DNA of 64,000 bases from Spirosoma taeanense (GTDB taxonomy: Bacteria; Bacteroidota; Bacteroidia; Cytophagales; Spirosomataceae), in the NCBI RefSeq assembly GCF_013127955.1, contig NZ_CP053435.1, positions 4,464,001 to 4,528,000 on the forward strand. Direction: 5' to 3'. The translations under genes were made by a program, and so were the position numbers. Positions 43,929 to 64,000 of the stretch are shown here, one piece after another (the stretch's first letter is position 1; each line of letters opens with the position of its first letter). The notes under the pieces were generated by a model that did no database searches, was not told the DNA's origin, and saw only the letters and a list, made by a program, of their open reading frames with translations.

Positions 43929-46900
43929 ATGAAAAACTTACGGCTTCCCTCCCGCGCTGTGTTGCTGGCGGGCGTGCTGGCGGTATCGCTGCCGGGCATT
44001 AATGTGCCGGCCTGGGCGCAGACAGCCGCCCGGCGCACCACGGCCAGCAAACCCGCGTTGGCTTCGGCCGAAACGCCAGTTGCTCTGAACCGGGTGCTGG
44101 TTTTCTCAAAAACCAAAGGTTATCGTCATGCATCGATTCCGGTTGGGAAACGAGCCATTATGAAACTGGGTCAGGAGAACGGCTTCGCAGTTGACACAAC
44201 CGAAGACGCCAGCAAGTTCACCGAAGACAATCTCAAAAAATACAGCGCCGTCATCTGGCTGAGCACTACGGGCAATGTACTGGACGATGCGCAGCAGGCT
44301 GCTTTTGAGCGCTACATTCAGGCCGGGGGTGGTTATGTCGGTATTCACGCGGCTGCCGATACTGAGTATGACTGGCCCTGGTACAACCAACTGGCCGGTG
44401 CCTGGTTCCTGAGCCATCCCAAACAACAGAACGTAGATATCAAGGTGCTCGACAAGAATCACCCGTCGACCAAAATGCTGCCCGACGTCTGGAAACGGTT
44501 CGATGAGCTGTACAACTACAAAAACATTTCCAAAGACATTAAAGTCCTGGCCAAGCTGGATGAAAGCACCTATCAGGGTGGCGCAAACGGCGATAATCAC
44601 CCCTTCATCTGGTACCACGATTTCGACGGTGGCAAGGCTTTCTATACGGGGGGCGGTCACACGGACGAATCTTATAGCGACCCGTTGTTTTTGCAGCACC
44701 TGCTGGGCGGCATTAAATCCGTAATGGCTTCGCAACTGAAATTTGGTCAGGCCAGAACGCAGCCCTTTCCGGAGGAAAACCGTTTCACCAAGAATGTGCT
44801 CGCAACCAAGCTGGACGAGCCCACCGAACTGGTTGTCCTCGACAACGGCAAAGTCCTGTTCGCTGAACGTAAAGGCGCTCTGAAACTATGGGATCCCAAA
44901 AAGAAAGCCATCAAGGTCGTGGCCAACATGCCGGTCTTCACCAAGTTTGAGTATGGGCTTATGGGTCTGAACGCCGATCCTAAGTTTAACGAAAACAAAT
45001 GGCTGTATCTGTACTATACGCCGGGTGAGGGCGCTCCGATGCCGAGCGATACCGCCAACCGGCTAGTTCGGATTAAGTACGATGACGCCCGGGATACCCT
45101 GCTGTTCGATACCGAACAAACCATTATGACCGTTCCGGTAAAACGGACGGGCTGCTGCCACACGGGCGGCTCGATTGCCTGGGACCGTCAGGGCAACCTG
45201 TATCTGTCCGCTGGCGACGACACGAACCCGTTCGAGTCGAAAGGATTTTCGCCATCTGATGACCGCCCCGGCCGTGAAGGCTGGAACGCTCTGACCACCT
45301 CCAGCAACACCATGGACCTGCGCGGCAAGATCATGCGTATTAAGCCGCTGGACAACGGTAAGTACGAAATTCCCGAGGGCAACCTGTTTCCAAAAGGTAC
45401 ACCAAACACCCGGCCCGAGATTTACGTAATGGGTAACCGGAACCCCTACCGCATTGCGGTTGATCAACGCACTGGCTTTTTGTACTGGGGTGAAGTTGGC
45501 CCCGATGCCGGTGAGAACAGTGATAAATATGGTCCCCGCGGCCACGACGAGGTAAACCAGGCCCGGAAAGCGGGTTACTTTGGCTGGCCTCTGTTTGTTG
45601 CCGACAACAAGCCGTATCGTCAGTTCAATTTTGCCGACAGCACCTCCGGGGCATACAACGATCCGGCAAAACCGATCAACTACTCGCAGCGGATTCAGGG
45701 TTTGCGGGAGCTGCCCCCGGCTCAAAAAGCGTTTATTTACTATCCCTACGCCGAATCGCCCGATTTTGGTGAGATCGTAGGTAAAGGTGGCCGTAACGCT
45801 ATGGGCGGGCCCGTTTATTACTACGATGATTATGCAGACAGCCCAGTTAAGTTTCCGCGTCATTATGACGGCAAGTTCTTTGCGTACGAATGGATGCGGG
45901 GCTGGATTAACCCGGTAACGATGACCAAGGATGGTGATTTTGTGAAAATGGAGCGGTTTATGCCCGGCACGAAATTCGACCACCCTATGGACATGCAGTT
46001 TGCGAAAGACGGCTCGCTCTGGTTGCTGGAGTACGGCACGAACTGGTTTGCGCAGAACGACGACGCCCGGCTTGTGCACATCACCTACAATGCCGGTAAC
46101 CGCCAGCCGATTGCAGCCGCCAGCGCCAATAAGGTGGTGGGAGCCGCTCCGCTGACGGTCGCTTTCACCAGCAAAGGCTCGATGGACTACGACGGGGATG
46201 CCATTACGTATGAGTGGACGTTTGGCAAAGGTATGCCGAAGAGTACCCAGGCTAACCCTACCGTTACGTTCAGCAAAGCGGGGGTTTATCAGCCCGTTCT
46301 GAAAGTAACCGATGCAAAAGGCAACGTTGCGACGCACACAGTAGAGATCAAAGTGGGCAATGATGCGCCAAAGGTTGAGGTAGCGCTGAAAGGCAACCGA
46401 ACGTTCTTCTTCGATAACAAGCCCATCGACTACGAGGTGAAAGTTGCCGATAAGGAAGATGGCACGCTGGCGAGCGGTAAGATCAATCCCGAAGACGTCG
46501 TGGTTACGGTCAATTACCTCGAAGGCTTCGACAAAACCATGCTGGCGCAGGGTCACCAGGCCAATACAGGCTTCTCGACCGGAAAGCGTCTGATTGAACT
46601 GAGCGACTGCAAAGCCTGCCACAGCATTGACAAGAAATCTATCGGGCCGGCTTATATGGCCGTTGCTGAGCGTTACGCCAAAGAACGTCGGGCCGCTATT
46701 GTTAACCAGCTGGCAAAGAAAGTCATCGCGGGTGGTGGCGGTAACTGGGGCGAGCAGGCCATGAGCGCGCACCCACAGCTGAAGGAGGACGAAGCGAAAG
46801 AAATGGTCAGCTACATCATGTCGCTGGCCGATAAAAAGCGCGTTGATAAGCAGCCTGTAAAAGGTGCTTACGTAGCTAAAGCCAAGGAAAAAGACGGCTC

Positions 46901-47417
46901 GTATATCTTCACGGCCAGCTACACCGATAAAGGCAGTTCAGTCATTGGCCCACAAACGGGCTCAACGACGGTTGCCCTGCGTTCATCGACGGTGAAAGCG
47001 GTTTCGGCCGACATCAAGCAGGATATCTATCAATTTGACGTACCTAAGCTTGGTCCGGCGGCAATCGGCCTGAAGTCTGGCAGCTACCTGGGTTTCAACG
47101 ATATTGACCTGACGGGCATTCAGTCGATTTCGGCAGGTACCTTCAGTGCGGATGACCGGACAGCCGGCGGTAAACTTGAAGCCCGGATTGATTCGCCAAC
47201 CGGCGCGTTACTGGCCGAGGCCAATGTAAAGCAAGGTTCGACGGGTGGGGTAAATCTGGCCTTCCGGCAACCCGCGACGGGCATGCACAAACTGTTCTTC
47301 GTCTTCGTGAATCCGAGTGCCGGCCAGAAGCCCCTGTTCGCGCTGGACAAATTGCAGTTTATTATGCAGTCTGGTTCGGGCACAGCCAGCAGCGTTGGCA
47401 CTGGCCAGGGTAAATAA
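43929..47417 (+). CDS. ThuA - PQQ-dehydrogenase-like - PKD - cytochrome c - CBM6-like fusion, exported
   Basis: This 1162-residue secreted protein has a signal peptide ending VPAWAQ. In order, residues about 55-275 form a ThuA glutamine-amidotransferase-like domain (KTKGYRHASIPVG, GGYVGIHAAAD, WYHDFDGGKAFYTGGGH). Residues about 285-710 form a sorbosone/glucose dehydrogenase-type beta-propeller (RTGCCHTGGSIAWD, YVMGNRNPYRIAVD). A PKD domain (about 715-800) follows, then a class I cytochrome c (about 865-960) with heme motif C-KA-C-H (DCKACHSID) and Met ligand in EQAMSAHP. The C-terminus is a CBM6-like sandwich (from about 1005). It probably oxidises a sugar and passes electrons to its own heme. 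Cofactor and substrate are not proven. Confidence 0.9.
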   Translation: MKNLRLPSRAVLLAGVLAVSLPGINVPAWAQTAARRTTASKPALASAETPVALNRVLVFSKTKGYRHASIPVGKRAIMKLGQENGFAVDTTEDASKFTEDNLKKYSAVIWLSTTGNVLDDAQQAAFERYIQAGGGYVGIHAAADTEYDWPWYNQLAGAWFLSHPKQQNVDIKVLDKNHPSTKMLPDVWKRFDELYNYKNISKDIKVLAKLDESTYQGGANGDNHPFIWYHDFDGGKAFYTGGGHTDESYSDPLFLQHLLGGIKSVMASQLKFGQARTQPFPEENRFTKNVLATKLDEPTELVVLDNGKVLFAERKGALKLWDPKKKAIKVVANMPVFTKFEYGLMGLNADPKFNENKWLYLYYTPGEGAPMPSDTANRLVRIKYDDARDTLLFDTEQTIMTVPVKRTGCCHTGGSIAWDRQGNLYLSAGDDTNPFESKGFSPSDDRPGREGWNALTTSSNTMDLRGKIMRIKPLDNGKYEIPEGNLFPKGTPNTRPEIYVMGNRNPYRIAVDQRTGFLYWGEVGPDAGENSDKYGPRGHDEVNQARKAGYFGWPLFVADNKPYRQFNFADSTSGAYNDPAKPINYSQRIQGLRELPPAQKAFIYYPYAESPDFGEIVGKGGRNAMGGPVYYYDDYADSPVKFPRHYDGKFFAYEWMRGWINPVTMTKDGDFVKMERFMPGTKFDHPMDMQFAKDGSLWLLEYGTNWFAQNDDARLVHITYNAGNRQPIAAASANKVVGAAPLTVAFTSKGSMDYDGDAITYEWTFGKGMPKSTQANPTVTFSKAGVYQPVLKVTDAKGNVATHTVEIKVGNDAPKVEVALKGNRTFFFDNKPIDYEVKVADKEDGTLASGKINPEDVVVTVNYLEGFDKTMLAQGHQANTGFSTGKRLIELSDCKACHSIDKKSIGPAYMAVAERYAKERRAAIVNQLAKKVIAGGGGNWGEQAMSAHPQLKEDEAKEMVSYIMSLADKKRVDKQPVKGAYVAKAKEKDGSYIFTASYTDKGSSVIGPQTGSTTVALRSSTVKAVSADIKQDIYQFDVPKLGPAAIGLKSGSYLGFNDIDLTGIQSISAGTFSADDRTAGGKLEARIDSPTGALLAEANVKQGSTGGVNLAFRQPATGMHKLFFVFVNPSAGQKPLFALDKLQFIMQSGSGTASSVGTGQGK

Positions 47418-48995: not shown

Positions 48996-50390
48996 ATGAA
49001 AATCCGACTGGGGTTTCCGGCATTAAGCATAGTACTGCTACTGCTGTTCAGTAGCCTGGTGGCCCTGATACCCACTTCCAAACAGAAGCAGGCTAACCGT
49101 GCGCCCAACATCATCCTGATTCTGATCGACGACATGGGGTCAGCCGATGTGGGATGCTACCGATCCAGTAAATCCGCCAATCAGTTACCCCCTACCCCCA
49201 ACATCGACCGACTGGCAACTGAGGGCATTCAGTTTACCAACTACTACAGCGGAGCCCCTATCTGTTCGCCCTCCCGGGTGGCCCTTACGACGGGGAACGT
49301 GCCGGGCAAATGGCGAATCACATCGTTTCTGGCCGAGCGAAAACACAACCGCACCTGTGAACAGGCCGATTTTCTGGACGCTTCGGCTCCATCAGTAGCA
49401 CGTGAACTCAAAACGGCGGGTTATGCCACGGCGCACTTTGGGAAATGGCACATGGGTGGTGGGCGCGACGTCGACAATGCGCCCGGTATCCGGCAATACG
49501 GTTTCGATGAATACGCCAGCACCTGGGAAAGCCCCGACCCCGACCCGCTGCTTACGTCGACCGACTGGATCTGGGCAAAATCGGACAGCATCAAACGCTG
49601 GAACCGGACGGCCTACTTTGTCGATAAAACACTCGATTTTCTAAAGCGAAACGCAGCCAAGCCCTGCTACGTCAACCTCTGGCCCGACGATGTGCATACA
49701 CCCTGGGTACCTGACGAAACAACCCTTAACGATTTTCCAAAGGGAACCGAAAAACCTCGCGAATTCAAGGCCGTCCTGGCCGAACTTGACGTACAGATTG
49801 GCCGACTGATGGCAGGTCTGAAGGCATTGGGCATCGACGACAATACGCTCATCGTGTTCACCAGCGACAACGGCGCCCTACCTACCTTCGAGGGAATCCG
49901 GTCGGGTAAATTTCGCGGTAGTAAGCTCTCGCTGTACGAAGGCGGCATTCGGATGCCTTTCATCGTTCGCTACCCGGCCCGAACGCCCAAAGGCAACATA
50001 GATAACCAGTCGGTGTTGAGCGCGATCGACTTATTGCCTACGTTCGTGAGCCTGGCGGGTAAAAAAACGAGCAACTCACGTGCCGACGGGGAAAACATGG
50101 CAGCGGTGCTGCTGGGCAAACCTATCGTTCGTAAGAAGCCCCTTTTTTGGGAATATGGTCGCAATAACGAATCGTTCCGCTACCCGGCGGGTCGTGACAA
50201 AAGCCCGAATCTGGCCATGCGGCAAGGCGACTGGAAGCTATTGGTCAATGACAATGGCTCCGGCACCGAGCTTTTTAACCTCGCCACCGATCCATCCGAG
50301 CAAACGGATGTGTCCAGTCAGCAGCCGAAGGTGGTGGAAACTATGCGACCAAAGCTGCTCGCCTGGCGGACGGGGCTGGTAAAAGAGTAA
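48996..50390 (+). CDS. Family S1 sulfatase, exported or membrane-anchored
   Basis: This 464-residue sulfate-ester hydrolase has the metal site start IILILIDDMGSAD (Asp 45 and 46), the formylglycine motif C90-S-P-S-R94 and HFGKWHMGG, and later FTSDNGALP. Because it needs formylglycine, a maturase must be encoded elsewhere. The N-terminus is a hydrophobic signal/anchor (LSIVLLLLFSSLVALI). No sugar enzyme adjoins it. It differs from the 6080 sulfatase in its Asp-Asp site (SCED there) and in having no CHB_HEX domain. Confidence 0.92.
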   Translation: MKIRLGFPALSIVLLLLFSSLVALIPTSKQKQANRAPNIILILIDDMGSADVGCYRSSKSANQLPPTPNIDRLATEGIQFTNYYSGAPICSPSRVALTTGNVPGKWRITSFLAERKHNRTCEQADFLDASAPSVARELKTAGYATAHFGKWHMGGGRDVDNAPGIRQYGFDEYASTWESPDPDPLLTSTDWIWAKSDSIKRWNRTAYFVDKTLDFLKRNAAKPCYVNLWPDDVHTPWVPDETTLNDFPKGTEKPREFKAVLAELDVQIGRLMAGLKALGIDDNTLIVFTSDNGALPTFEGIRSGKFRGSKLSLYEGGIRMPFIVRYPARTPKGNIDNQSVLSAIDLLPTFVSLAGKKTSNSRADGENMAAVLLGKPIVRKKPLFWEYGRNNESFRYPAGRDKSPNLAMRQGDWKLLVNDNGSGTELFNLATDPSEQTDVSSQQPKVVETMRPKLLAWRTGLVKE

Positions 50391-51451: not shown

Positions 51452-51494
51452 CGACGGGCAAAGATACAATGGGCACTTGAATCTTTGCCCGTCG
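51452..51494 (-). terminator. Terminator ending the minus-strand sugar operon
   Basis: Perfect 14-bp arms (51452-51465 and 51481-51494) with a 15-base loop lie 35 bases after the stop of the third Sde182-like gene. On the minus strand CTTACTTTTAATT follows. It also separates ribB from the operon. Confidence 0.75.
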
Positions 51495-51528: not shown

Positions 51529-53031
51529 TTATTGCGTAACCGTGGCAATCACCCGCCCGTAGCGAGTCAGGGCGGGCGTTCCACTATCGGTCACCTCAAG
51601 AATCAGGTGGATTGTTTGACCAGTCGTGGCGTCGGCCGGTACGACAAAGGTGACTTTGGCCTGATCGCTCTGCTGGATGTCAACTTTGCCCGGATAGGTG
51701 CCGGCTTCTGCGTATTGCCACCAGCGGTAATTGACGTTATTGCCGTCCGGGTCGATGGCCGATCCGCTAAGCGTTACGGTCTGACCCGGCTTCACGCGCA
51801 GGTCGCGGGCCTGGTTTAATTTAACCACCGGCGGATGATTGGCTTCTTTGTAGGGTTTGACGCACCAGTCGGCGCGGGCGGCAAAATCGTTCTGCAGGGC
51901 CGGTATCCAGCGCGTTTGCGGAAAAGCGGCATCCGCCTTACCCGTATAGGGATTGTAGTCAGTTACGTCTTTACCGTCTTCCCAGCGATACGGGTTCGTT
52001 TTCGAGGGCACCATGCGGCCACCCCAGCCACCGTACGAGACATCTTCCAGGCTCCGCAGTCCTACGTCAATCAGGTAGAAATAGGCCGGTGAGTCCCCTT
52101 CCGAGATAAAGTCATACTGACTCCGACCGAATTTCCGGGCTTCGGCCATGCTGCCGTGCGTATGTTCGGGATCGCCGGGGAGTTGCTGGCCATCGCCCCA
52201 TAGGTAATAGGAAGCCAGCAACGGACCATGTCCGGTTTTGATGTGTTCCGCAAACCATTTTCCGCCCAGATACGGTTGTAGTTCAGCGGGAACCACCCGT
52301 GGCCATGCGTAGGCAAAGCTCCAGAACTGGTCGGAGTTGTAGAGCACCTTAATCTGGGGCCAGTTGGGAGCCACGTATTTCCTATAGGTCGCGTCCTGGT
52401 CGAGTACGGCGTAAATGATGGCTTTGTCGGATACTTTTTTCTGAATAGTCGACCAGTTGGCGGTGCCTTTATACTGGTCTTCAATGGATTTCAACGCGCG
52501 GGCGACCGTGTTGGTACCACCCCAGATTTGCAGGTAAACGGGGCTAGGATTATTGTCGAGCAGAATCTGTTTAACAAAGTTCGAGCCTTCGGTGTCCCGG
52601 CTCATCTCGCCTTCAAAGTCAATATTGCCGACCCGCACCAGACTCTTCAGCTGCGCCGGTGCCGGGTAGCCTTTGGCGTGTTTCACCAGATTGGAATACA
52701 CCTGCGCGTATTTGTCGATATAAGCCTCCATCCAGGTGGTGCCGGGCCAGCGCAGTTCGGTGCGTTCGCCGTAGCGTTTGGCGGTACTGGCCATTTCGGA
52801 GGTAAACTTGGTGCCTTTCCCGTCGCCTTTGTAATGCCATTGCGAACTACTGTACACCAGCCCAACGATGTCGAACTCGTTGCTGTAGAGCAGCATCCGA
52901 ATAAAGGTATCGACGTCGTCTACCTCCCCGTCGGTGGTCACGATGGTACGTTGTTTACCCTGGGGAACTTGAGCCAGGACAGTTGTTGATAGCAGCGACC
53001 AAAGGCCAAGCAGAAGAATGGTTAGTTTCAT
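51529..53031 (-). CDS. Sde182/DUF1593 nucleoside-hydrolase-like exoprotein, copy 3
   Basis: This 500-residue protein has a signal peptide (LWSLLSTTVLAQ). The N-terminal domain (about 25-370) has a nucleoside-hydrolase-like fold. Its opening strand reads IVTTDGEVDDVDTFIRML, with the TDGEVDDVD acidic cluster in place of the DTDPGxDD calcium site. It also has VYLQIWGGTNTVARALK and IYAVLDQDATYRK. The C-terminal ~100 residues form an Ig-like Sde182 C-domain (VTLSGSAIDPDGNNVNYRWW, VTDSGTPALTRY). It differs more from the other two copies than they do from each other. It is the last gene of the operon, 26 bases after the kinase. Confidence 0.88.
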   Translation of the reverse strand: MKLTILLLGLWSLLSTTVLAQVPQGKQRTIVTTDGEVDDVDTFIRMLLYSNEFDIVGLVYSSSQWHYKGDGKGTKFTSEMASTAKRYGERTELRWPGTTWMEAYIDKYAQVYSNLVKHAKGYPAPAQLKSLVRVGNIDFEGEMSRDTEGSNFVKQILLDNNPSPVYLQIWGGTNTVARALKSIEDQYKGTANWSTIQKKVSDKAIIYAVLDQDATYRKYVAPNWPQIKVLYNSDQFWSFAYAWPRVVPAELQPYLGGKWFAEHIKTGHGPLLASYYLWGDGQQLPGDPEHTHGSMAEARKFGRSQYDFISEGDSPAYFYLIDVGLRSLEDVSYGGWGGRMVPSKTNPYRWEDGKDVTDYNPYTGKADAAFPQTRWIPALQNDFAARADWCVKPYKEANHPPVVKLNQARDLRVKPGQTVTLSGSAIDPDGNNVNYRWWQYAEAGTYPGKVDIQQSDQAKVTFVVPADATTGQTIHLILEVTDSGTPALTRYGRVIATVTQ

Positions 53032-53057
53032 GGTCTTACGTAACGATAGGTAATTAA

Positions 53058-54563
53058 TCAGGATTTAGTCCGGATGGCGTTTTGCCAGCCCTCGTAATAC
53101 ACTACGGTTTGTGATGCCCCGGCACCCGGCCTAAGGGTGTTACGTTGGGCGGTTAACGCTTCCAGATGGGCTAAATCCCTAAAGATGCCTTCTTTCAAAC
53201 CAGCCAGAAAGGCCGCTCCCTGGGCGGATACATCCGGCATCCCCTGGTTGATGACCAATTTCCCCAGTAGGTCCGCTAAGAATTGCAGCACGAAGCCGTT
53301 GGTCGTCAGTCCGCCGTTGACCGCCAGTTCCGCCAGCGATACACCCGTATCCCCTTCCATAGCCACGACAATGTCTTTGATCTGGTAGGGAATGGACTCC
53401 AGGGCTGCCCGCACCAGGTGGGCTTTTGTCGTGCTGAAGGTTATGCCCGATATGGACGCTTTACGCTCCATTTGCCAGTAGGGTGCCCCCAGGCCACTGA
53501 AGGCTGGAACCAGATACACGCCCCCATTGTCGGCTACGGATTGGGCCAGCGCTTCGGTTTCTGTACTGTGGGCAATCAGCTCCAGGCTGTTTTTCAGCCA
53601 TTCAATGGTCGCTCCACAGGTCACAATTACGCCCTCCAGCGCGTAGTCAACCAGCCGTTGGCCCGACCGGTCTTCCATGCTCCAGCAAATGGTGGATACC
53701 ATGCCGTGGCTCGATTCTTTAGGCTCCGGGCCAACGTTCATGATGATGGAACAACCCGTACCCAGAGTAGCCTTCGCCGTACCCGGAGCGAAACAGCCTT
53801 CCCCAAACGCTGCCGCGTGGGAGTCGCCAATCATGGCGGACAGACGAACCGGATGATCAAACAGTCCATTGAAGCAGGACTCCCCAAAATAGGCGGAGGA
53901 CGGTTTGGGCTCGGGCAGGTTCAAGCCTGACAAACCAAACGTGTTCAGTAGCTCGGTATCCCAGGTTAGCGTTTGTAGATTGAAAAACAGCGTCCGGGAT
54001 GCATTGGTGTAATCGGTATAGTAACTGGCTCCGCCTGTGAGTTTGTAAAGCAGCCAGCTATCCACGGTGCCGAAAAAGGCGTTGCCGTCGCGGATGGCCT
54101 GACTTACGTTTTCGATGTGTTCGGCCAGCCAGATCAGTTTAGTACCCGAGAAATAAGGGTCAATGAACAAACCGGTTTTGGCCCGAATCGTGGGTTCCAG
54201 TCCCTGGGCTTTGAGTCGTTCGCAAACGGAGATGGACCGCTTGCATTGCCACACAATAGCCTTGTAAAGCGGTTCACCCGCCCCATTCCAGACAACAAAC
54301 GTTTCGCGCTGGTTAGAAATACCCGCCACCATAATGTCGTGGGGTTTACCGCCCATGGCCGCAAACCCGCCCAGACACTTGCCTACCGAAGTCAGCACAT
54401 TGCGGTATATTTCTTCCGAGTCCTGTTCAACGTAACCGTCACCGTAATAATGGGTCTTGAGAGGTTCCGACGCCCGAACAACGACCTGACCGTCGGCATC
54501 AAAAATAAGCGTCTTGGTACTACTGGTTCCCTGGTCGATGGCCAGGATGAAAGGTGGCTTCAT
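53058..54563 (-). CDS. FGGY carbohydrate kinase, glycerol-kinase-like
   Basis: This 501-residue kinase phosphorylates a sugar or polyol with ATP. It follows glycerol kinase closely: FILAIDQGTSSTKTLIFD (phosphate 1 loop), GISNQRETFVVWN, AIVWQCKRS, GLFIDPYFSGTKL, TLGTGCSIIMN and AVNGGLTTNGFVLQFLADLL. Since it sits in an operon with a ribose-type ABC importer and transketolase, the substrate may be another short polyol or ketose rather than glycerol. 3 bases separate it from the permease. Confidence 0.92.
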   Translation of the reverse strand: MKPPFILAIDQGTSSTKTLIFDADGQVVVRASEPLKTHYYGDGYVEQDSEEIYRNVLTSVGKCLGGFAAMGGKPHDIMVAGISNQRETFVVWNGAGEPLYKAIVWQCKRSISVCERLKAQGLEPTIRAKTGLFIDPYFSGTKLIWLAEHIENVSQAIRDGNAFFGTVDSWLLYKLTGGASYYTDYTNASRTLFFNLQTLTWDTELLNTFGLSGLNLPEPKPSSAYFGESCFNGLFDHPVRLSAMIGDSHAAAFGEGCFAPGTAKATLGTGCSIIMNVGPEPKESSHGMVSTICWSMEDRSGQRLVDYALEGVIVTCGATIEWLKNSLELIAHSTETEALAQSVADNGGVYLVPAFSGLGAPYWQMERKASISGITFSTTKAHLVRAALESIPYQIKDIVVAMEGDTGVSLAELAVNGGLTTNGFVLQFLADLLGKLVINQGMPDVSAQGAAFLAGLKEGIFRDLAHLEALTAQRNTLRPGAGASQTVVYYEGWQNAIRTKS

Positions 54564-54566
54564 GTC

Positions 54567-55550
54567 CTATGCCTCGTTTTTTGCGTTCGATTTATCGATG
54601 ATGACGGCCAGCAGGATAACAAAACCTTTGACGACCTGCTGCCAGAAGGGCGATACGTTGAGTAGCACCAGACCATTGTTCAGGACGCCGATGATGATGG
54701 CCCCCTGTACCGTACCTAGAATGCTGCCCCGTCCGCCCGACAGCGAGGCCCCGCCAATCACGACGGCCGCAATGGAGTCCAGCTCATAGCTGATGCCAGC
54801 ATTAGGCTGGGCCGAATCGAGTCGGGACGTAACCAGCAATCCACCCACCGCAGCCAGTGCCCCGGAGAGGGTGTACACCATCAGCTTTGTGCGGGTGATA
54901 TTAACGCCCGACAACCGGGCCGCGCTTTCGCTGCCGCCAATGGCGTAGATGTACCTGCCGATACGGGTTTTATTAGTCAGCAAGACGGCCAGCGCGACAA
55001 TCAGCGCCGATACCCAGACGGGAACCGGAATGCCCAATAGCCAGCCGGTGCCGAGGTACGTAAACGACTCGCCCAGCCCGGTAATCGGGAAGCCTTCCGT
55101 CCAGAGCATAGTCAGGCCCCGGGCGATGGTGAGCATGGCCAGTGTTGCCACAAAGGGCGGCAAGTTGAAGCGGGTAATGGCCCAGCCATTAAACCAGCCC
55201 AGAACCGAGCCCGTCAGTATACCGACGACTATCGCTCCCAACAGGGTAAAGCCGATAAACAGGTTGGCACTAGGCAGGGGAATGCCGTTACGTAGCAGGC
55301 CCGCTGTGATGGCGCCCGCCAGGGCCAGCACCGAGCCAACGGATAAATCGATGCCCGCCGTCAGCACGACAAGCGTCATACCGGTGGAGATACAGACGTT
55401 GACCGAAATCTGCCGCAGTACGTTCCAGAAGTTGGCTACGGTCAGGAACTTATCGGATAGTATACTAAGGGCCAGACAAAGTACGAACAGCGCAATCAAG
55501 GACTGAAAACGCGTTAGGGCGGGCCGGTAGGTTTGTAGGGTTATGTTCAT
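54567..55550 (-). CDS. Ribose-type ABC transporter permease (RbsC-like)
   Basis: This protein is 327 residues from ATG 55550. The frame opens 20 codons earlier, inside a repeat, and those codons read unlike a permease. It has eight or more helices, with the family segments GMTLVVLTAGIDLSVGSVLA, NLPPFVATLAMLTIARGL, GGSESAARLSGVN and DSIAAVVIGGASLSGGRGS (the EAA-like region). It forms the membrane channel with the ATPase encoded just upstream. Its start is preceded by a large hairpin repeat. Confidence 0.95.
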   Translation of the reverse strand: MNITLQTYRPALTRFQSLIALFVLCLALSILSDKFLTVANFWNVLRQISVNVCISTGMTLVVLTAGIDLSVGSVLALAGAITAGLLRNGIPLPSANLFIGFTLLGAIVVGILTGSVLGWFNGWAITRFNLPPFVATLAMLTIARGLTMLWTEGFPITGLGESFTYLGTGWLLGIPVPVWVSALIVALAVLLTNKTRIGRYIYAIGGSESAARLSGVNITRTKLMVYTLSGALAAVGGLLVTSRLDSAQPNAGISYELDSIAAVVIGGASLSGGRGSILGTVQGAIIIGVLNNGLVLLNVSPFWQQVVKGFVILLAVIIDKSNAKNEA

Positions 55551-55560
55551 ATTGAGTAAT

Positions 55561-55633
55561 TGAGTGAATGAGCGATTGAGTGATTGAGCGAATTTTCTTC
55601 TTCCACTCAATCACTCAATCGCTCATTCACTCA
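55561..55633. repeat. 28-bp perfect inverted repeat built of TGAGYGAW octamers
   Basis: The arms 55561-55588 and 55606-55633 are fully complementary, with a 17-base loop. Each is made of 8-base units such as TGAGTGAA, TGAGCGAT and TGAGTGAT. The last codons of the ABC ATPase (MSE and TGA, 55623-55634) lie within the right arm. It should form a strong hairpin in the operon mRNA between ATPase and permease. A related copy is at 57174-57247. Confidence 0.9.
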
Positions 55634-57149
55634 TTGATTTAGGAATTGCGGCTTTCAGAATGTCGTCCGGTCGGTGTTCCGATTCGGTGGCGTCCTTCAG
55701 GCTCAGGTCGGCCGTCAGCACGCCCTCGCTCATGACCAGAATCCGGTCGGCAATGGCCAGCAGTTCCGGTATTTCGGAGGATACCACCAGCAGGCCCATC
55801 CCATCGGTAGCTAGTTGCGCAATGAGTTTATAGATTTCGTTCTTAGCGTTTACGTCGATGCCGCGGGTGGGCTCATCGAGCATCAGGAGCTTGGGCCCGG
55901 TCGCGAGCCATTTTGACAAGACGATTTTTTGCTGGTTGCCCCCGCTCAGGTTTTTAGCCTTTTGTTTCTCCGAGGAGGTTTTGATGCGTAAATCGTGGAT
56001 ATACTTCTTCGCCAGCGCAGTCTCCTTCGCCTGGTTCAGGAAGCCGCTTTGCTCAATGGCATCCAGGGCGGTCAGGCTGATATTGGTTTGCACGTCCAGG
56101 TCCAGCACCAGACCATCGCGCTTGCGGTCCTCGGGAACCAGCGCCAGCCCCGCCCGGATGGATTCACCCGGCGCTTTGAGTTGGACAGGCTGCCCATCGA
56201 GCCGAACGTTGCCGCTGCTACGTTTCGGGTAGAGGCCAAAGAGGGTTTCGAGCAGTTCGGTCCGGCCCGCGCCCATCAACCCAAACAGGCCGACTACCTC
56301 GCCCCGCCCGACTGTAAAGGAAAGGTTCTTTAGCTGAAAATCGCCTGTCCGGACCGGATACGTAAGGCAAAGGTTTTCGACCGTCAGTAATGGTTGATAC
56401 GTAACGCCAGCCGTTTGCCGCCGGATAATCTGTACATCCCGGCCAACCATTTTTCGAATCAGACTGTCGTGGTCAATCCCCTGCATCTCGCCCGATTCGA
56501 TGGATTTGCCGTCGCGGAGCACCACGTAGCGGTCGGCGATGGTAAACAGTTCGTCCAGTTTGTGGGAGATATACACAATCGCTTTTCCCTTTCGGCGCAA
56601 GTCGGCGATAATGCGAAAAAGCACTGCTACCTCGCTTTCACTGATGGCCGAGGTGGGCTCATCCATGATGATGACTTCCGACTCTTCCAGCAAGGCTTTG
56701 GCAATTTCAACTACCTGTTGCTGGCCTACCTTTAACTGGACAACCGGCGTATCCGGGTCGAGCGAAAGCTTGAGGTCATCGAGTAGCTGACGCGTTTTCT
56801 CGCGCATCGCTTTTTTGTCGAGCGTACCCCAGCGGGTAGTCAACTCCCGGCCCAGAAAGATATTTTCGGTGATGGTCAGGTACGGAATCAGGGCGAGTTC
56901 CTGATGAATGATGGCAATGCCTGCCGCCTGCGCTTCGCGGATGGAGCCAAACCGAATCGTCTGCCCCTTGAACCGAATCTGGCCTTCGTAATCCGTGTAC
57001 ACCCCGGAGAGTATCTTCATCAGGGTCGATTTTCCCGCGCCGTTTTCACCAATAACGGCCGTAACCTGACCAGCGGCAAACGCTAGGCATACCCCGTCCA
57101 GCGCCGTAACGCCCGCAAATCGTTTGGTTATGTTCTCGGCGACTAACAT
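55623..57149 (-). CDS. Ribose-type ABC transporter ATPase with two nucleotide-binding domains (RbsA-like)
   Basis: This 508-residue protein has Walker A GENGAGKST, signature LKVGQQQVVEIAKALL and Walker B VIIMDEPTSAI in the first half. In the second half it has the degenerate GLMGAGRTELL loop, LSGGNQQKIVLSKWL and LLMLDEPTRGIDV. This is the class of sugar importers with fused ATPase halves. Its end (AIPKSMSE) is formed by an inserted repeat. It energises uptake together with the permease. Confidence 0.96.
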   Translation of the reverse strand: MLVAENITKRFAGVTALDGVCLAFAAGQVTAVIGENGAGKSTLMKILSGVYTDYEGQIRFKGQTIRFGSIREAQAAGIAIIHQELALIPYLTITENIFLGRELTTRWGTLDKKAMREKTRQLLDDLKLSLDPDTPVVQLKVGQQQVVEIAKALLEESEVIIMDEPTSAISESEVAVLFRIIADLRRKGKAIVYISHKLDELFTIADRYVVLRDGKSIESGEMQGIDHDSLIRKMVGRDVQIIRRQTAGVTYQPLLTVENLCLTYPVRTGDFQLKNLSFTVGRGEVVGLFGLMGAGRTELLETLFGLYPKRSSGNVRLDGQPVQLKAPGESIRAGLALVPEDRKRDGLVLDLDVQTNISLTALDAIEQSGFLNQAKETALAKKYIHDLRIKTSSEKQKAKNLSGGNQQKIVLSKWLATGPKLLMLDEPTRGIDVNAKNEIYKLIAQLATDGMGLLVVSSEIPELLAIADRILVMSEGVLTADLSLKDATESEHRPDDILKAAIPKSMSE

Positions 57150-57173
57150 AGGTGAAATCGGACCGCCGAAGCG

Positions 57174-57247
57174 GAGTGAATGAGTGAAAGAGCGAATGAG
57201 TGATTGAGTGAACCGTCTGAAAACTCACTCAATCGCTCATTCACTCA
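57174..57247. repeat. Second TGAGYGAW hairpin repeat (imperfect)
   Basis: The arms about 57189-57210 and 57226-57247 pair over 22 bases with three mismatches and a 15-base loop; an extra left segment (57174-57188) continues the octamer pattern. The right arm is the same 20 bases as in the repeat at 55614-55633. The stop codon of the DUF2291 gene (57241-57243) lies in this arm. Confidence 0.85.
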
Positions 57248-57870
57248 ATTATAATTGGTATCATGGTCAGGTTGTCCAGGTGCAAATGCGCTCGGTTGAG
57301 TTCCATTGCGCCGATGAACGAAAGCTTTTTGCCGGGTGCGGCATTGGCCTTCAGCGTTGGTACGATCTGGTTCCGGATGATCTCGTCAAGCTCAGCCGAG
57401 ACGCTGTTGAGATCGGTGGTGTTATCAAACTCGGTGATGTTGATTAAACCCGACGCATCTCGGGCCGCATTACCGAAGATGTACTCCGTGGCGAGGTGGA
57501 CGGTCTCTCCGGATGCCAGCGATACTGTAACATCATTCGGCCCAACAGTGGTAACGGTTCCCTCGCCCTTGACCAGAAAATAGCGGATATTCCCGATACC
57601 CAATGCGTGCGAGTACTGATTGAAGGCTTTCTCTTGGTCCGTTTTCAGGAGTGACAGCAGCGTAGCCAGGTCCGTCGCCAAGCGAGGAGCCGCTGGTAGT
57701 AGTTTGGCATTCCAGAAGGTTTGGGCGTACGGAGCAGCCGCAAACGCTGATTTGCCCGCGCCGGTTACGCCGGCCGCTTTTACCTCATCGAGCCGTTTGA
57801 AGTAAACGGAGTTATAAGCCATTAGCCCCAGCAGCACCACCCCAATAGCGTACTTTACCGTCTTGTTCAT
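57241..57870 (-). CDS. DUF2291 protein of sugar ABC transporter operons
   Basis: This 209-residue protein has an N-terminal membrane anchor (AIGVVLLGLMAYNSVYF) and then a periplasmic domain (AAPYAQTFWNAKLLPAA, ATEYIFGNAARDASGLINI, SFIGAMELNRAHLHL). It matches DUF2291, which is found beside ribose-type ABC importers and is thought to be an accessory lipoprotein or anchor. Its start overlaps the binding-protein stop by 4 bases. A hairpin repeat begins at its stop. Confidence 0.88.
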   Translation of the reverse strand: MNKTVKYAIGVVLLGLMAYNSVYFKRLDEVKAAGVTGAGKSAFAAAPYAQTFWNAKLLPAAPRLATDLATLLSLLKTDQEKAFNQYSHALGIGNIRYFLVKGEGTVTTVGPNDVTVSLASGETVHLATEYIFGNAARDASGLINITEFDNTTDLNSVSAELDEIIRNQIVPTLKANAAPGKKLSFIGAMELNRAHLHLDNLTMIPIIIE

Positions 57871-58814
57871 AGTCTGGCCGGGGTCTGGTAGTCGGAAATA
57901 TTCTGCTGCGTCACCAGTTCAACGGCTACCGGCACCCGCTGGGCAAAATCACGCTTGCCGTTGAAGTATTCATCCGCGTATTGGGCAGCTGTTTTGGCCA
58001 TCGTCTGGGGCGATTGCAGACCCGTTGCCTTGATCTTGCGGTCGCGAATCGAGTTCATGACGTCGTCGGCCCCGTCGAAGCCGTACACGCCCACCTCCTT
58101 TTGTTTGCCGGCTGCGACCAGCGCCTGATATGCGCCCATCGCCATCGCATCATTGCCGCAGAACACCGCGTCGATATCCGGGTGGGCCTGCAGAATGGAT
58201 TCGAGCACTTCCAGCGCCTTATTGCGATCGAAATCGGCGCTTTGCTGGGCTACCATCTTCAGGCCCGGATAGCGATCAACGACGCTGTGAAAGCCCTTCG
58301 AGCGATTCCACGTATTGTTGTCGCCTACCAGCCCCAAGATTTCTACGTAATTTCCCCTCTTGTTCAGCGCCTGCACGAAGTTTACGCCGAGAGCCACGCA
58401 GCCGGAGTAGTTATCCGACAGAATCTGCGAGGTCGCAACGCTGGATGAGTTCACCTCGCGGTCCATGCAGAACACAGGAATGCCCGCTTCCTTCGCTTTC
58501 ATGACGTTCACGATAGAGCCATCCGAATCGGTGGGGTTGAGCAGGATGGCGTTGAATCCTGACACGATGGCGTTCTCGAAATGGTCGGCTTCCAGCGAGG
58601 TGTTGTTCTGCGAATCGAAGATTTTGGCTTCGTAGCCGAGCGCTTTGGCTTCGGCAGCCGCCGTTTCGGCCAGCACCACAAACCAGGGATTGTTGAGCGT
58701 GGAGACAATGACGGCTACCTTCTTAGGCCCATTCTTATCCGATCTGGACGTACAGCTCCCAACCGCAAGCAGGACGAAAAGCAGCCAGGCAGTGAGTATT
58801 CCCTGTTTTTTCAT
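57867..58814 (-). CDS. Ribose-type ABC transporter substrate-binding lipoprotein
   Basis: This 315-residue protein has a lipobox (LLAVGSCTSRS) and the type 1 periplasmic-binding fold: VAVIVSTLNNPWFVVLAETA, ILLNPTDSDGSI, GIPVFCMDREVN, ILQAHPDIDAVFCGND and VYGFDGADDVM. These follow the RbsB pattern. The ligand is probably a pentose or similar small sugar. It lies 12 bases after the first Sde182-like gene and overlaps DUF2291 by 4 bases. Confidence 0.95.
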   Translation of the reverse strand: MKKQGILTAWLLFVLLAVGSCTSRSDKNGPKKVAVIVSTLNNPWFVVLAETAAAEAKALGYEAKIFDSQNNTSLEADHFENAIVSGFNAILLNPTDSDGSIVNVMKAKEAGIPVFCMDREVNSSSVATSQILSDNYSGCVALGVNFVQALNKRGNYVEILGLVGDNNTWNRSKGFHSVVDRYPGLKMVAQQSADFDRNKALEVLESILQAHPDIDAVFCGNDAMAMGAYQALVAAGKQKEVGVYGFDGADDVMNSIRDRKIKATGLQSPQTMAKTAAQYADEYFNGKRDFAQRVPVAVELVTQQNISDYQTPARL

Positions 58815-58826
58815 GCGCGTTCAGGG

Positions 58827-60257
<1,431 letters not shown>

Positions 60258-60281
60258 GAGGTTTAGGTAGTTGGGGTGGCT

Positions 60282-61751
60282 TTAGGGCACTACGGTTACG
60301 ATTACCCGTTTGTAACGCGTTAAGGCAGGAGTACCCTTATCAGTTACTTTCAGAATGAAATGAATCGTTTGCGGGCTCGTTACGGTCGGGGCAATAGGCC
60401 GGGCTTCGTAGATGTTCGAAACAAAATTCTCGTAGTTGACCACCCCCTGGTACGTACCTGCTTCGGGATACTGCATCCAGCGGAAACTCATCGAATCGCC
60501 GTCGGGGTCCGTCGATTCGGAGGCCCGCAGGTAAAATTGCTCGCCCGATTTGACGGTCAGATTTTCGGGGTGCGACAGCCGGGGAACGGGTGGGTGATTA
60601 GCCTCCTTGTAGGGTTTGGTACACCAGTCCATACGGGCGGCAAAATCGTTCTGGAATTCCGTACGCCACCGCCAGATGGTGGCCTGAAGGCTCTTTTTGG
60701 CCGTAGGCTGTTTGGTTTCCGGCGGGGGCATAAAGGTTCTTGGGGTCAGAACCGAGTCCGCTGAATTCGTCCAGATAGGGCGCGTTTCGGGCTCTTCGGC
60801 CGGCGCACTGGCGGGCTTATTACGGCTGGCGATTAACGTAGGCTGTTGCAGGACGTAACGACCACCCCAGCCGCCCCAGTCGGGGTGCTCTGGTGCGTTC
60901 AGACCATTCGGAATCAACCCCAGAAAAGACGGGGTGTCCCCTTCCATCCCAAAGGCTACGTCGGGATACAGTGCCCCCAGTGGTCCATGCCCCTGCTGAA
61001 TGTGTTCGACCAGCCAGGCATCGCTGGCGTACTCCGGATGCGTGCCCGGTTCGCCCGTGTTGATCCCGCGCCAGGTAGCGTGTTCGTAGCCATAGCCAGG
61101 GCTCACCACATAAAACACGCTCGGAAAGGTCTTCCGAATCCAGGGGCCGCTGTCGTCCTGATCGGAAATGGTATAGACCCGCAGTTTGCGGTACAGCCGC
61201 TCGGCCTGCTCGGGTGTGCGGGTTTTCTGAATGGTCCGGAGGGCCTGCGCCAGTGTATTTACACCACCCCAGACCGACACCCATAGCGGCCGGTCCGGTC
61301 CGCCGGTGCGGTCGGGTTTTTCCAGTTGCCGGATAATCCAGTTCGACCCTTCCGAGTCTTTGCCCTCACCCACACCACCCATGCCATACACGGGTAACCC
61401 TTTTTTGATAACCGTTTTCAGAACCTGCGCAGTTGGATAGCCCGGTTCATGTTTCAGCAGATTAGGCTGCACTTTCCCATAGGCGTCCACGATCCGGTGA
61501 ATGGTTTCGGGAGCCACGCGTTTTTGCAGGTGAATGGAGGTAGTCGCCACCAGCCCTTCAATATCAATCAGATTGGCATACGTAAGCAGGCGAACCAGCG
61601 ACTGCGAATCGTCGGGTTCGTTCTCAATATCAGTCAGCACCACTAGTCTCGGCTTTTGGCTGGGTGTCTGGGCCACGCTAGGCCCAGACTGCCCCATAGT
61701 CGGTAGCAGGGCCATTAGAAAAAGAACTACGAACAGATAAGCAGGTTTCAT
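60282..61751 (-). CDS. Sde182/DUF1593 nucleoside-hydrolase-like exoprotein, copy 1
   Basis: This 489-residue protein has a signal peptide (VLFLMALLPTMGQ). It has the same layout as copy 2: [51 protein letters not shown] and a C-domain with ESTDPDGDSMSFRWM. A Pro/Ala-rich insert near residues 310-350 is absent from copy 2. The two lie head to tail (24-base gap), which suggests an old tandem duplication with different substrate ranges. Confidence 0.9.
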   Translation of the reverse strand: MKPAYLFVVLFLMALLPTMGQSGPSVAQTPSQKPRLVVLTDIENEPDDSQSLVRLLTYANLIDIEGLVATTSIHLQKRVAPETIHRIVDAYGKVQPNLLKHEPGYPTAQVLKTVIKKGLPVYGMGGVGEGKDSEGSNWIIRQLEKPDRTGGPDRPLWVSVWGGVNTLAQALRTIQKTRTPEQAERLYRKLRVYTISDQDDSGPWIRKTFPSVFYVVSPGYGYEHATWRGINTGEPGTHPEYASDAWLVEHIQQGHGPLGALYPDVAFGMEGDTPSFLGLIPNGLNAPEHPDWGGWGGRYVLQQPTLIASRNKPASAPAEEPETRPIWTNSADSVLTPRTFMPPPETKQPTAKKSLQATIWRWRTEFQNDFAARMDWCTKPYKEANHPPVPRLSHPENLTVKSGEQFYLRASESTDPDGDSMSFRWMQYPEAGTYQGVVNYENFVSNIYEARPIAPTVTSPQTIHFILKVTDKGTPALTRYKRVIVTVVP

Positions 61752-61778
61752 AAGGTTTAAGAAATAGCGATTCAGGGA

Positions 61779-62750
61779 TTACCGACCCAGTAAGGTCAGC
61801 GCTTCCTGAGCAATGCCGTTTTCAGATAAGCCGTAGTGGTTAAAAATCTCCACCTGCGAGCCGGTAACGGTGTATTCATCCGGAATACCCATGATGTTGA
61901 AGCGGTTGCGGAATCCATTCATCATCAGGAATGACGCGCAGGCTTCGCCTAACCCACCATATACGCTATGCTCTTCGACCGTCAGAATGGGGCAGCCTTT
62001 GGCCGCTACGGTAGCCAGCAGATCGCAGTCGAGCGGCTTGATGGTGTGCATGCTGATAACCGTCGCGCGGATGCCGTGGGTTTGTTCCAACTGGCGGGCG
62101 GCCAGCAGGGCCGGATAAACCGTTTCGCCGGTGGCTACCAGCACCAAATCATCGCCCTCGCTGACCACACGGCCTTTGCCAAACAGAAACTCTTTATTTT
62201 CTTCCGACAGCAGGGGCATCGGCTTTTTGCCAAACCGAATGTAAACAGGGGTGTTCAGTTGAGCCGCCTGCCGGATGGCCTGCTCCGTCTCAAAGTTGTC
62301 GGCTGGGGCCACAATGGTCAGGTTATGCACGGCGCGCAGGGCGGCAAAATCGTGCAGGCTGTGGTGGGTTGACCCTAAAGCCCCGTAGCTGACGCCCGCG
62401 CTGATACCAATCAGCCGCACCGGGTTGTTGGAGTAGGCAACGTCGGTTTTGATCTGCTCAAACGAGCGGGCTGTCAGAAAGCAGGCGGGCGATACGGCAA
62501 ACACATTCTTGCCCGTTGATGCCAGACCGGCCGCTACGCCCACCAGGTTTTGTTCGGCGATGCCAATTTCGACTACTTGCTTCGGGTATTTCTGCGCGAA
62601 GGGCACGAGCTTGCCCGACCCCCGCGAATCGCTAGTGACCACCAGCAGGTTACGGTCGGTAGCCGCTAATTCCTGCAGGGTACTGGAAAAAACATCCAGA
62701 TTGGCCTGCCCCGCTTTTGTGTCCGTTATGACGGTTGTTACATCTCCCAT
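61779..62750 (-). CDS. Transketolase, C-terminal half (pyrimidine-binding and C domains)
   Basis: This 323-residue protein has the PYR-domain segments LLVVTSDSRGSGKLVPFAQK, VEIGIAEQNLVGVAAGLA, STHHSLHDFAALRAVHNL and VYIRFGKKPMP. The C domain is TVEEHSVYGGLGEACASFL. The catalytic Glu (IAEQN) is present. With the N half encoded 12 bases upstream it should form a two-subunit transketolase that moves two-carbon units between sugar phosphates in the cytoplasm. Confidence 0.95.
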   Translation of the reverse strand: MGDVTTVITDTKAGQANLDVFSSTLQELAATDRNLLVVTSDSRGSGKLVPFAQKYPKQVVEIGIAEQNLVGVAAGLASTGKNVFAVSPACFLTARSFEQIKTDVAYSNNPVRLIGISAGVSYGALGSTHHSLHDFAALRAVHNLTIVAPADNFETEQAIRQAAQLNTPVYIRFGKKPMPLLSEENKEFLFGKGRVVSEGDDLVLVATGETVYPALLAARQLEQTHGIRATVISMHTIKPLDCDLLATVAAKGCPILTVEEHSVYGGLGEACASFLMMNGFRNRFNIMGIPDEYTVTGSQVEIFNHYGLSENGIAQEALTLLGR

Positions 62751-62762
62751 GATGTGTATCGC

Positions 62763-63590
62763 TTATGCCAAAGCCAGGGCTGCCTCTTCCAGCTCGTCCA
62801 GAGCCTGAGCGTATTGTTCCGAATTAGGTACGCCATGGTGCCATTTCAATTGCCCCTCCATGAAACTGACGCCCTTGCCTTTTACAGTATGGGCAATAAT
62901 TAGGCTTGGTTTGCCGGGTGCAAACGGCAAGGCATCAAAGACTTCCTGCAAGGCCGCCAGATCATGCCCGTCAACGTGCCGTACTGACCATCCGAACGCT
63001 TCAAATTTTTGATCGAGCGGGTCGGTATTGCACACGTCGGCCGTTGACCCTGAAATCTGCAGGGTGTTTTTGTCGACGATGGCGCAGAGATTATCCAATT
63101 TATAATGCGATGCCAGCAGGGCAGCTTCCCAGTTGGAGCCTTCGGGCAGCTCGCCGTCGCCCAGCAACGTAAACACGCGGTAGTCCAGCTCATCCAGTTT
63201 GGCCGACAGCGCCGTTCCCACACTCAGGGCCAGGCCGTGCCCCAGCGAACCGGTGTTTTGCTCGATGCCCTTAATCTTACGGGTCGGGTGGCCGATGTAG
63301 TGCGATTTATACTGACACAGCGTCTCCAGATCCGATTCCGGGAAAAAGCCTTTATCGGCCAGCACGACGTAAAGGGCCTCTACCGTATGGCCTTTACTCT
63401 GGATATACCGGTCGCGGGTGGGCGAACCAAACGTTTCCGGACTGACTCTGAGTACGTTGTTATACAACACATTCAGGATGTCGACGCAGGACAGGCTGCC
63501 ACCTGTGTGTCCGGCTTTCGCTCCGACTATATACTTCAGAATATTCCGGCGGTACTGCACCGACTTTTGGGCTAATTCATTGACATTCAT
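62763..63590 (-). CDS. Transketolase, N-terminal half (thiamine diphosphate-binding)
   Basis: This 275-residue protein has a thiamine diphosphate/metal motif GDGELPEGSNWEAALLASHY (GDG...N), with AGHTGGSLSCVDILNVLY, IGHPTRKIKGIEQNTGSLGH, VDGHDLAALQE and IIAHTVKGKGVSFME. It has no pyrimidine domain, which is carried by the next gene. It is the first gene of the ten-gene operon, 70 bases after the esterase-like gene. Confidence 0.95.
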   Translation of the reverse strand: MNVNELAQKSVQYRRNILKYIVGAKAGHTGGSLSCVDILNVLYNNVLRVSPETFGSPTRDRYIQSKGHTVEALYVVLADKGFFPESDLETLCQYKSHYIGHPTRKIKGIEQNTGSLGHGLALSVGTALSAKLDELDYRVFTLLGDGELPEGSNWEAALLASHYKLDNLCAIVDKNTLQISGSTADVCNTDPLDQKFEAFGWSVRHVDGHDLAALQEVFDALPFAPGKPSLIIAHTVKGKGVSFMEGQLKWHHGVPNSEQYAQALDELEEAALALA

Positions 63591-63660: not shown

Positions 63661-64000
63661 TTATTTGAAAAGCTTCGGCGCCAGCTCCATCAGATAAAGT
63701 CGCCAGTTGACCCAGGTGTGACCACCCTCACTTTCCCGGTACGTATAGGGCATTCCTTGCTGGTCATACAAAGCCCGGAGTTTCGTTACGCTGTCATACA
63801 GGAAATCATCCTTGCCACAGGCAATCCAGTAGAGTTTGGGTTTGGCCTGTTTAAGAGCCTGTATCTGTTTGATGTGTTCCTCTTTGTTATAATTGCGGGC
63901 CATCGGACCATCAAAAAGGCCCATGCTCATGACGCCAATGTAGCCGAACGTAGTGGGGTTGGCGTTGGTAATCTGCTGAGTATGATAGCCGCCCATCGAA
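63661..64000 (-). CDS. Esterase-like alpha/beta hydrolase, C-terminal part (partial)
   Basis: The frame runs off the right edge and ends at 63661. The first visible codons read S-M-G-G-Y-H, so the catalytic Ser of a GxSMGG nucleophile elbow lies at 63997-63999. The Asp is in CGKDDFLYD and the His in SEGGHTWVNWR, which completes the triad. This resembles carbohydrate esterases of the esterase D/xylanase-linked feruloyl esterase kind. Whether it belongs to the transketolase operon cannot be told. Confidence 0.85.
   Translation of the reverse strand, partial: SMGGYHTQQITNANPTTFGYIGVMSMGLFDGPMARNYNKEEHIKQIQALKQAKPKLYWIACGKDDFLYDSVTKLRALYDQQGMPYTYRESEGGHTWVNWRLYLMELAPKLFK

Follow-up and report, generated by a model that had tools for sequence, protein, structure and literature searches.

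A probable pentose-utilization operon with Sde182 proteins in Spirosoma taeanense, possibly serving D-apiose

The window analysed here is a stretch of 64,000 nucleotides from Spirosoma taeanense (NCBI RefSeq assembly GCF_013127955.1, contig NZ_CP053435.1, positions 4,464,001 to 4,528,000), and it carries a run of ten genes in which a ribose-type ATP-binding cassette importer stands together with three Sde182-type (DUF1593) proteins, an FGGY kinase of the glycerol-kinase branch and a transketolase split into two halves. Our preferred reading, to which we give about an even chance, is that this locus is a pentose-utilization operon for D-apiose from plant pectin, i.e., from rhamnogalacturonan-II or apiogalacturonan. 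In plant cell walls, rhamnogalacturonan-II is cross-linked by borate through its apiose residues, and the way in which this sugar is set free and consumed bears on pectin turnover. Gene content, synteny, folds, conserved active-site residues and the apiosidase-family neighbours in several phyla were all computed in the present study.

Proposed route and organization of the operon

In the proposed route, whose substrate, enzyme activities and order of steps we infer from these data, the secreted Sde182 proteins and esterases would act on apiose-bearing material outside the cytoplasm, and the free pentose would be taken up by the RbsB/DUF2291/RbsA/RbsC importer. An enzyme with the L-fucose/L-arabinose isomerase fold would convert D-apiose to D-apulose, the FGGY kinase would phosphorylate D-apulose to D-apulose 4-phosphate, and the split transketolase would transfer a two-carbon unit to glyceraldehyde 3-phosphate, yielding xylulose 5-phosphate and dihydroxyacetone phosphate. 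The kinase and transketolase reactions proposed here are reportedly those of the D-apiose transketolase pathway published by Carter et al. in 2018. At the same time, the annotated genes of the operon include no epimerase beside the isomerase, ketose kinase and transketolase, and this combination without an epimerase is what apulose 4-phosphate needs.

The original prediction, made from the letters of the window, had described one catabolic unit in which secreted proteins, importer, kinase and transketolase act in turn, and had named an apiose-type pentose among its possible substrates; both points are supported. To speak of a full pathway within the window was premature, since the isomerase lies beyond it; this isomerase would supply the step that had been absent, giving the order isomerase, FGGY kinase, split transketolase.

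The ten open reading frames (ORFs) all lie on the minus strand at 51529-63590 and are closely packed, as had been said, and the families named for them (three Sde182, FGGY, RbsA/B/C, DUF2291 and the transketolase halves) agree with the profile matches. The intergenic spacings, in the order from TktN to Sde3, are 12, 27, 24, 12, -4, 91, 12, 3 and 26 bases. Position 63590 had been taken as the 5' end of the unit, which was wrong: same-strand genes go on upstream, beyond the window, with an esterase gene that ends at 63661 and leaves a gap of 70 bases to 63590. Judged by strand and spacing, the ten window genes and these upstream genes most likely form one operon. The features are listed below in the direction of reading; three of them are given in the numbering of locus L038 (contig 4525001-4545000), to which 61000 is added to obtain window numbering.

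L038 6164-6940, same strand as the operon: DeoR/AgaR-type regulator (profile match)
L038 4733-6157, same strand as the operon: isomerase, 474 aa, with a Fucose_iso_C domain (profile match)
L038 3830-4720, same strand as the operon: second esterase, an acetyl-esterase-like hydrolase (profile match)
63661..64000, minus strand: esterase (PF00756), 3' part, running past the window edge (genome sequence beyond the window)
62763..63590, minus strand: TktN, N-terminal half of the split transketolase, 275 aa (PF00456, E 1.7e-43; 49% identity to E. coli SE15 AptA)
61779..62750, minus strand: TktC, C-terminal half of the split transketolase, 323 aa (PF02779 and PF02780; 43% identity to AptB)
60282..61751, minus strand: Sde1, Sde182-type nucleoside-hydrolase-like protein, 489 aa, probably secreted (PF07632, E 1.9e-108, and PF21027; hydrophobic N-terminus by eye)
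58827..60257, minus strand: Sde2, Sde182-type protein, 476 aa, probably secreted (PF07632 and PF21027)
57867..58814, minus strand: RbsB-type substrate-binding protein, 315 aa, lipoprotein-like N-terminus by eye (PF13407)
57241..57870, minus strand: DUF2291 importer protein, 209 aa (PF10054, E 3.7e-52)
57150..57240, no strand: dispersed GAGTGA-type hairpin repeat in the DUF2291-RbsA gap (fold z -3.5)
55623..57149, minus strand: RbsA-type ATPase, 508 aa (PF00005, two stretches)
55551..55622, no strand: hairpin repeat, copy 2, in the gap from RbsA to the likely RbsC start (matched in the genome at contig 4519554-4519635)
54567..55550, minus strand: RbsC-type permease, likely ATG start at 55550, with TTG at 55610 also open (PF02653)
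53058..54563, minus strand: FGGY kinase, glycerol-kinase branch, with an altered substrate pocket, 501 aa (PF00370/PF02782)
51529..53031, minus strand: Sde3, third, divergent Sde182-type protein, 500 aa (PF07632, E 6.2e-66; 31-32% identity to Sde1/Sde2)
51452..51494, no strand: strong hairpin at the 3' end of the unit (14-base-pair stem, z -6.5)

Two gaps had been described as filled by hairpin repeats, and this proved correct for DUF2291-RbsA and RbsA-RbsC: as the RbsC start is likelier the ATG at 55550 than the upstream TTG, the RbsA-RbsC spacing counted above as 12 bases is the second hairpin-filled gap. The GAGTGA-rich repeat has 42 matches genome-wide, itself included, two of which lie in the operon. 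The hairpin at the 3' end, proposed as a terminator, is much more stable than its shuffled counterparts, but it is followed by no canonical minus-strand T-run and is absent from the terminator scan.

Conservation of the cassette and properties of its enzymes

Conserved synteny, which had been named beforehand as the test of the proposed unit, was found both in relatives and in distant phyla. DUF2291 is present in 17 of 59 near genomes, including that of the window, and the loci fetched from 16 relatives all contain RbsB, DUF2291, RbsA, RbsC, FGGY and at least one Sde182 gene (16/16), together with TktC in 15 and both TktN and the isomerase in 14 each; L031 and L037, each without some of the last three, stop at contig ends. 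The core of the cassette recurs in Thermotogota, Planctomycetota, Verrucomicrobiota, KSB1 and others. This was seen when named genomes were scanned with the ribose-binding protein of Thermotoga and four cytophagal ones as queries and the best 80 of 357 loci were kept (29 Verrucomicrobiota, 20 Bacteroidota, 16 Planctomycetota, 4 Thermotogota, 4 KSB1, 3 Pseudomonadota and 4 others). Since the loci were picked by binding-protein similarity, the importer counts are true by construction, and 28 of the 80 lack genes because they span less than 15 kb. On the importer strand, DUF2291 was found in 71 loci, TktN in 51, TktC in 51, FGGY in 50, the isomerase in 42 and Sde182 in 30. Counted on either strand, 50 of the 52 loci with an FGGY gene have both transketolase halves, the exceptions, L064 and L101, being cut by contig ends; the isomerase accompanies this trio in 39 of the 50 and Sde182 in 18. 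The catabolic core thus occurs without Sde182 in many loci, including those of Thermotogota. Among 14 control genomes, only that of T. maritima was positive for DUF2291, Fucose_iso_C and PF13204 alike. As separate observations, in L063 and L110 the importer is on one strand and the isomerase, kinase and transketolase genes are on the other, and the kinase, permease and Sde182 genes of L026 (relative G015) appear to be broken into several frames, by sequencing error or decay.

The operon kinase scores 539.7 bits against the GlpK equivalog model TIGR01311 (NCBIfam), below its cut-off of 590.35, and passes the broader GlpK subfamily model NF000756 (536.7 vs 498 bits). Its substrate pocket was read in an alignment of the kinases from 46 of the 52 loci, the window and three relatives, six reads outside 430-560 aa being left out, at the positions that correspond to Arg83, Glu84, Trp103, Tyr135, Asp245, Gln246 and Phe270 of E. 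coli GlpK. All 50 aligned operon kinases have the residues R E W Y D S S, whereas R E W Y D Q F is found in both GlpKs, of E. coli and of the window genome itself, and R E W L D S S in the E. coli D-apiose kinase AplK. The operon kinase shares with GlpK its FGGY branch and the residues Arg83, Glu84, Trp103, Tyr135 and Asp245, but differs in scoring under the equivalog cut-off and in the serines that replace Gln246 and Phe270 in all 50 operon kinases and in AplK. Read from these residues, the pocket may have been widened to take a ketose. A GlpK-like kinase with the GlpK pocket, 43% identical to the operon kinase, is encoded apart from the operon at contig 5384254, and with this separate GlpK and the altered pocket, the identification of the operon enzyme as glycerol kinase was dropped. 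In FGGY trees, far outgroups gave extreme branches, and without these far outgroups the monophyly of the operon kinases was neither shown nor rejected (p-AU 0.43).

The isomerase is the sole PF02952 match in the window genome. Its structural model (pLDDT 90.5) matches the L-arabinose isomerase 4r1q at TM 0.82 with about 14% identity, and further fold matches include the Bacillus pallidus D-arabinose isomerase 3a9r and L-fucose isomerases. Glu306, Asp330, His346, His444 and His445 are unchanged in 24 of 24 aligned sequences and may form the metal site. The enzyme thus has the fold and the conserved candidate metal-site residues of L-arabinose, L-fucose and D-arabinose isomerases, but only about 14% of their sequence, and a sequence search at E 0.001 found no relative in the PDB.

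The three Sde182 proteins match PF07632 with 223, 370 and 363 bits (gathering threshold 26.8), as well as PF21027, and share the nucleoside-hydrolase fold, the best PDB match of Sde1 being 2yhg (E 2.1e-82). That there are three of them holds for the window operon but is no fixed trait, as relatives have one to three. The aspartates at Sde2 positions 36 and 273 are present in 22 of 22 aligned sequences and that at position 43 in 21 of 22 (one gap); by motif, these three would correspond to the calcium site of nucleoside hydrolases. The residue before the last of them, as read from the alignment, is glycine in 22 of 22 Sde182 sequences, at a position presumably held by the catalytic histidine in nucleoside hydrolases. 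The most economical guess is that the Sde182 proteins are Ca2+-dependent furanosidases on a nucleoside-hydrolase fold.

Alternatively, whatever the sugar, they might be carried along by chance or act as non-catalytic furanose-binding modules, which we consider rather unlikely. Besides the glycine, the solved relative speaks for the latter: Sde_0182 of Saccharophagus degradans (PDB 2yhg) is reported to be inactive on nucleosides and has been proposed to be a furanose-interacting module. It is also reported to bear carbohydrate-binding domains, unlike the operon copies, in which a Pfam scan found none. Carriage by chance, though not a binding role, is made unlikely by position, since 63 of 65 Sde182 genes in the 80 loci lie on the operon strand and 45 of 65 within 3 kb of a core gene, these being spread over 27 loci and five phylum-level groups. 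No known substrate for Sde182/DUF1593 was found in the open-access literature searched, an absence that counts for little, and Sde182 is not named in those titles and abstract openings that were read from the open-access literature on apulose, GH140 and apiofuranosidases.

What looks new is that Sde182 proteins and an isomerase of the FucI/AraA fold are repeatedly coupled to this cassette. A far more specific combination, in which PF07632 comprises new secreted Ca2+-dependent apiofuranosidases of nucleoside-hydrolase fold and has the operon as its own catabolic partner in several phyla, the isomerase is a new D-apiose isomerase and the Thermotoga "ribose/D-arabinose" operon has to be re-read, is unlikely to hold as a whole.

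A second group of proteins was seen beside these genes. A relative of the PF01156 nucleoside hydrolases with a hydrophobic N-terminus is encoded at L022 14029-15081, with equivalents in 10 of the 16 relatives' loci, and in nine of these ten it sits between the transketolase halves; it carries the motif DNDFSGDPDG where DTDPGxDD is usual.

Pectin-related neighbours and the identity of the sugar

Genes of the apiosidase-like family PF13204 were found inside at least eight of 50 named loci, where even spacing would give 0.64, a figure that is only a rough guide because sugar genes cluster. The 50 loci tested were drawn from the 80 and are mostly longer than 15 kb; L044 and L065 (>15 kb) and L118 were not included. 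Strong matches lie in L062, L075, L104, L113 and L117, the same five that BLAST picked out among 97 loci, and weaker, DUF5060-type matches lie in L063, L068 and L071, with one strong and one weak match in L062. FGGY and both transketolase halves are present in five of the PF13204 loci (L063, L068, L071, L104 and L113); in L062 and L075, Sde182 and the isomerase stand beside PF13204 and the stretch ends before any kinase, and L117 has only the importer and a weak nucleoside-hydrolase match. L075 presents a single same-strand run of RbsB-DUF2291-RbsA-RbsC-Sde-pectate lyase-apiosidase-Sde-isomerase. Additionally, among 90 flanking same-strand ORFs, hand-picked from 157 before the scan, PF13204 was the commonest Pfam family (9/90) among the 25 of 89 families listed, the next polysaccharide-cleaving family listed being pectate lyase with 3; eight of the nine members were traced to loci. 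The DUF5060 proteins with the weak PF13204 domain (L063 16914-18464, L068 18205-19878, L071 16903-18507 and L062 16833-18452) are possibly a second apiosidase-like group.

In the relative G031, the DUF2291 gene of the operon and an apiosidase gene are 34 kb apart, with GH127, SusC/SusD-type, GH43-like, GH2 and GH141 genes between and beside them. GH2, GH127 and GH140 are given as rhamnogalacturonan-II classes in one report (PMC12613999). Another class of PF13204 genes (385-394 bits, by a cut-off chosen once the list had been viewed) is intact in nine relatives, all of them among the 16 that bear the operon, and lies within 70 kb of it in seven of the nine; since these nine share a genus, they are no evidence of independence.

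A pectin-type neighbourhood implies many further sugars, and the isomerase fold covers both L-arabinose and L-fucose isomerases. The same isomerase-kinase-transketolase chemistry could thus serve a different aldopentose or an unusual sugar of rhamnogalacturonan-II, with the Sde182 proteins as its glycosidases. We regard this as improbable, D-apiose being the closest complete gene-set match that has a growth phenotype.

Several observations weigh against D-apiose, and the strongest of them comes from the binding protein. RbsB, whose best PDB match is 2fn8, the ribose-binding protein of a ribose ABC transporter (E 9.3e-102), agrees with the T. maritima ribose-binding protein at 12 of 12 pocket positions, which were picked from ribose contacts, but with R. 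etli 4ry0 at 8 of 12 and with the protein of the E. coli apiose cluster at 5 of 12; its overall identity is 57% to the Thermotoga protein and 33% to that of E. coli, and the E. coli DUF2291 protein gave no match at 1e-3 in BLAST. The operon kinase is closer to the GlpK of its own genome (43%) than to AplK (38%), which has leucine in place of Tyr135, and the isomerase is not among the apiose isomerases that have been characterized. Of the apiosidase genes, that in L104 is on the strand opposite to the operon, the only PF13204 gene of the window genome lies about 1 Mb from the operon and has orthologue-like matches in relatives that lack the operon, and no PF13204 gene was found in the relatives' operon loci L022-L037 or in L038. 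One PF13204 orthologue is present in most members of the genus, with or without the operon (59 relatives), and a presence/absence test in near relatives therefore fails. Crystal structures of the R. etli protein have reportedly been obtained with ribose (4ry0) as well as with apiose (5ibq), and the pocket may accordingly not decide the sugar.

The binding pocket is the reason why ribose is kept as a rival. The isomerase would then form D-ribulose from D-ribose and/or D-arabinose, the FGGY kinase would yield D-ribulose 5-phosphate, and a housekeeping epimerase and the operon transketolase would complete the route, with ribose or another pentofuranose freed by the Sde182 proteins and, in some relatives, by the nucleoside-hydrolase paralogue. 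Such a route is possible, if doubtful. It would fit the nucleoside-hydrolase fold of Sde182, the PF01156 relatives described above and the D-arabinose isomerase 3a9r among the fold matches, but it requires no dedicated transketolase tied to the kinase, which was nevertheless found in 50 of 52 loci, and it leaves the apiosidase, pectate-lyase and rhamnosidase neighbours unexplained; the reported inactivity of Sde_0182 on nucleosides also speaks against it. Moreover, ribose appears to have its own salvage operon in this genome (L142 6072-9614, contig 2586071-2589613), with a ribokinase, an ADP-ribosylglycohydrolase and a sugar/ureide-type permease, and plain ribose use was dropped as a candidate for that reason.

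Two further genes of the window lie past the 3' end of the operon. A sulfatase (PF00884) is encoded shortly beyond it on the plus strand (48996-50390), and a 1162-aa protein at 43929-47417 combines ThuA, glucose/sorbosone dehydrogenase, PKD, cytochrome c and CBM6 domains.

Comparison with known systems

The D-apiose reading would add another isomerase to the apiose routes, and the Thermotoga "D-arabinose" genes would perhaps have been misread. In any case, the operon ties Sde182/DUF1593, a family with a solved structure, to one pentose pathway and thereby narrows its possible substrates to a few that can be tested.

The E. coli SE15 D-apiose cluster (ECSF_RS02670-RS02715) shares with the operon the permease, ATPase, DUF2291, ribose-type binding protein, FGGY kinase (aplK) and aptA/aptB; two traits of the D-apiose pathway are thus present here, namely a split transketolase and FGGY kinase in one cluster and a ribose-type binding protein with DUF2291. 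AplK is 38% identical to the operon kinase and has the serine pair in common with it, with Leu vs Tyr135. The cluster differs in its two SDR oxidoreductases, in having neither Sde182 nor a FucI/AraA-type isomerase annotated, in the binding pocket and in the 33-49% identity of the matching proteins. According to PMC13001218, E. coli strains with this cluster grow on D-apiose, and the cluster, used there as the D-apiose query, is without the D-apiose isomerase ApsI. Because of the binding pocket, the operon is not filed as a member of the D-apiose transketolase pathway but as one that would only work like it.

The ribose (RbsR) operon of Thermotogota is similar in another way: L044 has RbsB-DUF2291-RbsA-RbsC-TktN-TktC-FGGY-isomerase, and the pocket of the T. 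maritima protein is identical to that of the operon. It differs in a LacI-type regulator (by eye, L041, L043 and L044), where the window operon has DeoR, in that no Sde182 gene was found in L041-L044 (three of them short contigs), and in the ribokinase that is reported to belong to the conserved part of the Thermotogota ribose regulon; no PfkB gene was found among the 14 operon genes scanned, the ribokinase of this genome lying elsewhere. The original claim that ribose-type operons do not use a glycerol-kinase-like FGGY enzyme is not supported, in view of L043 and L044, both with RbsB-DUF2291-RbsA-RbsC-TktN-TktC-FGGY, a regulator gene being interposed in L043 and the isomerase also present in L044. 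With the same architecture in the E. coli D-apiose cluster and in the Thermotogota "ribose" operon, the glycerol-kinase-like kinase of S. taeanense is not unprecedented.

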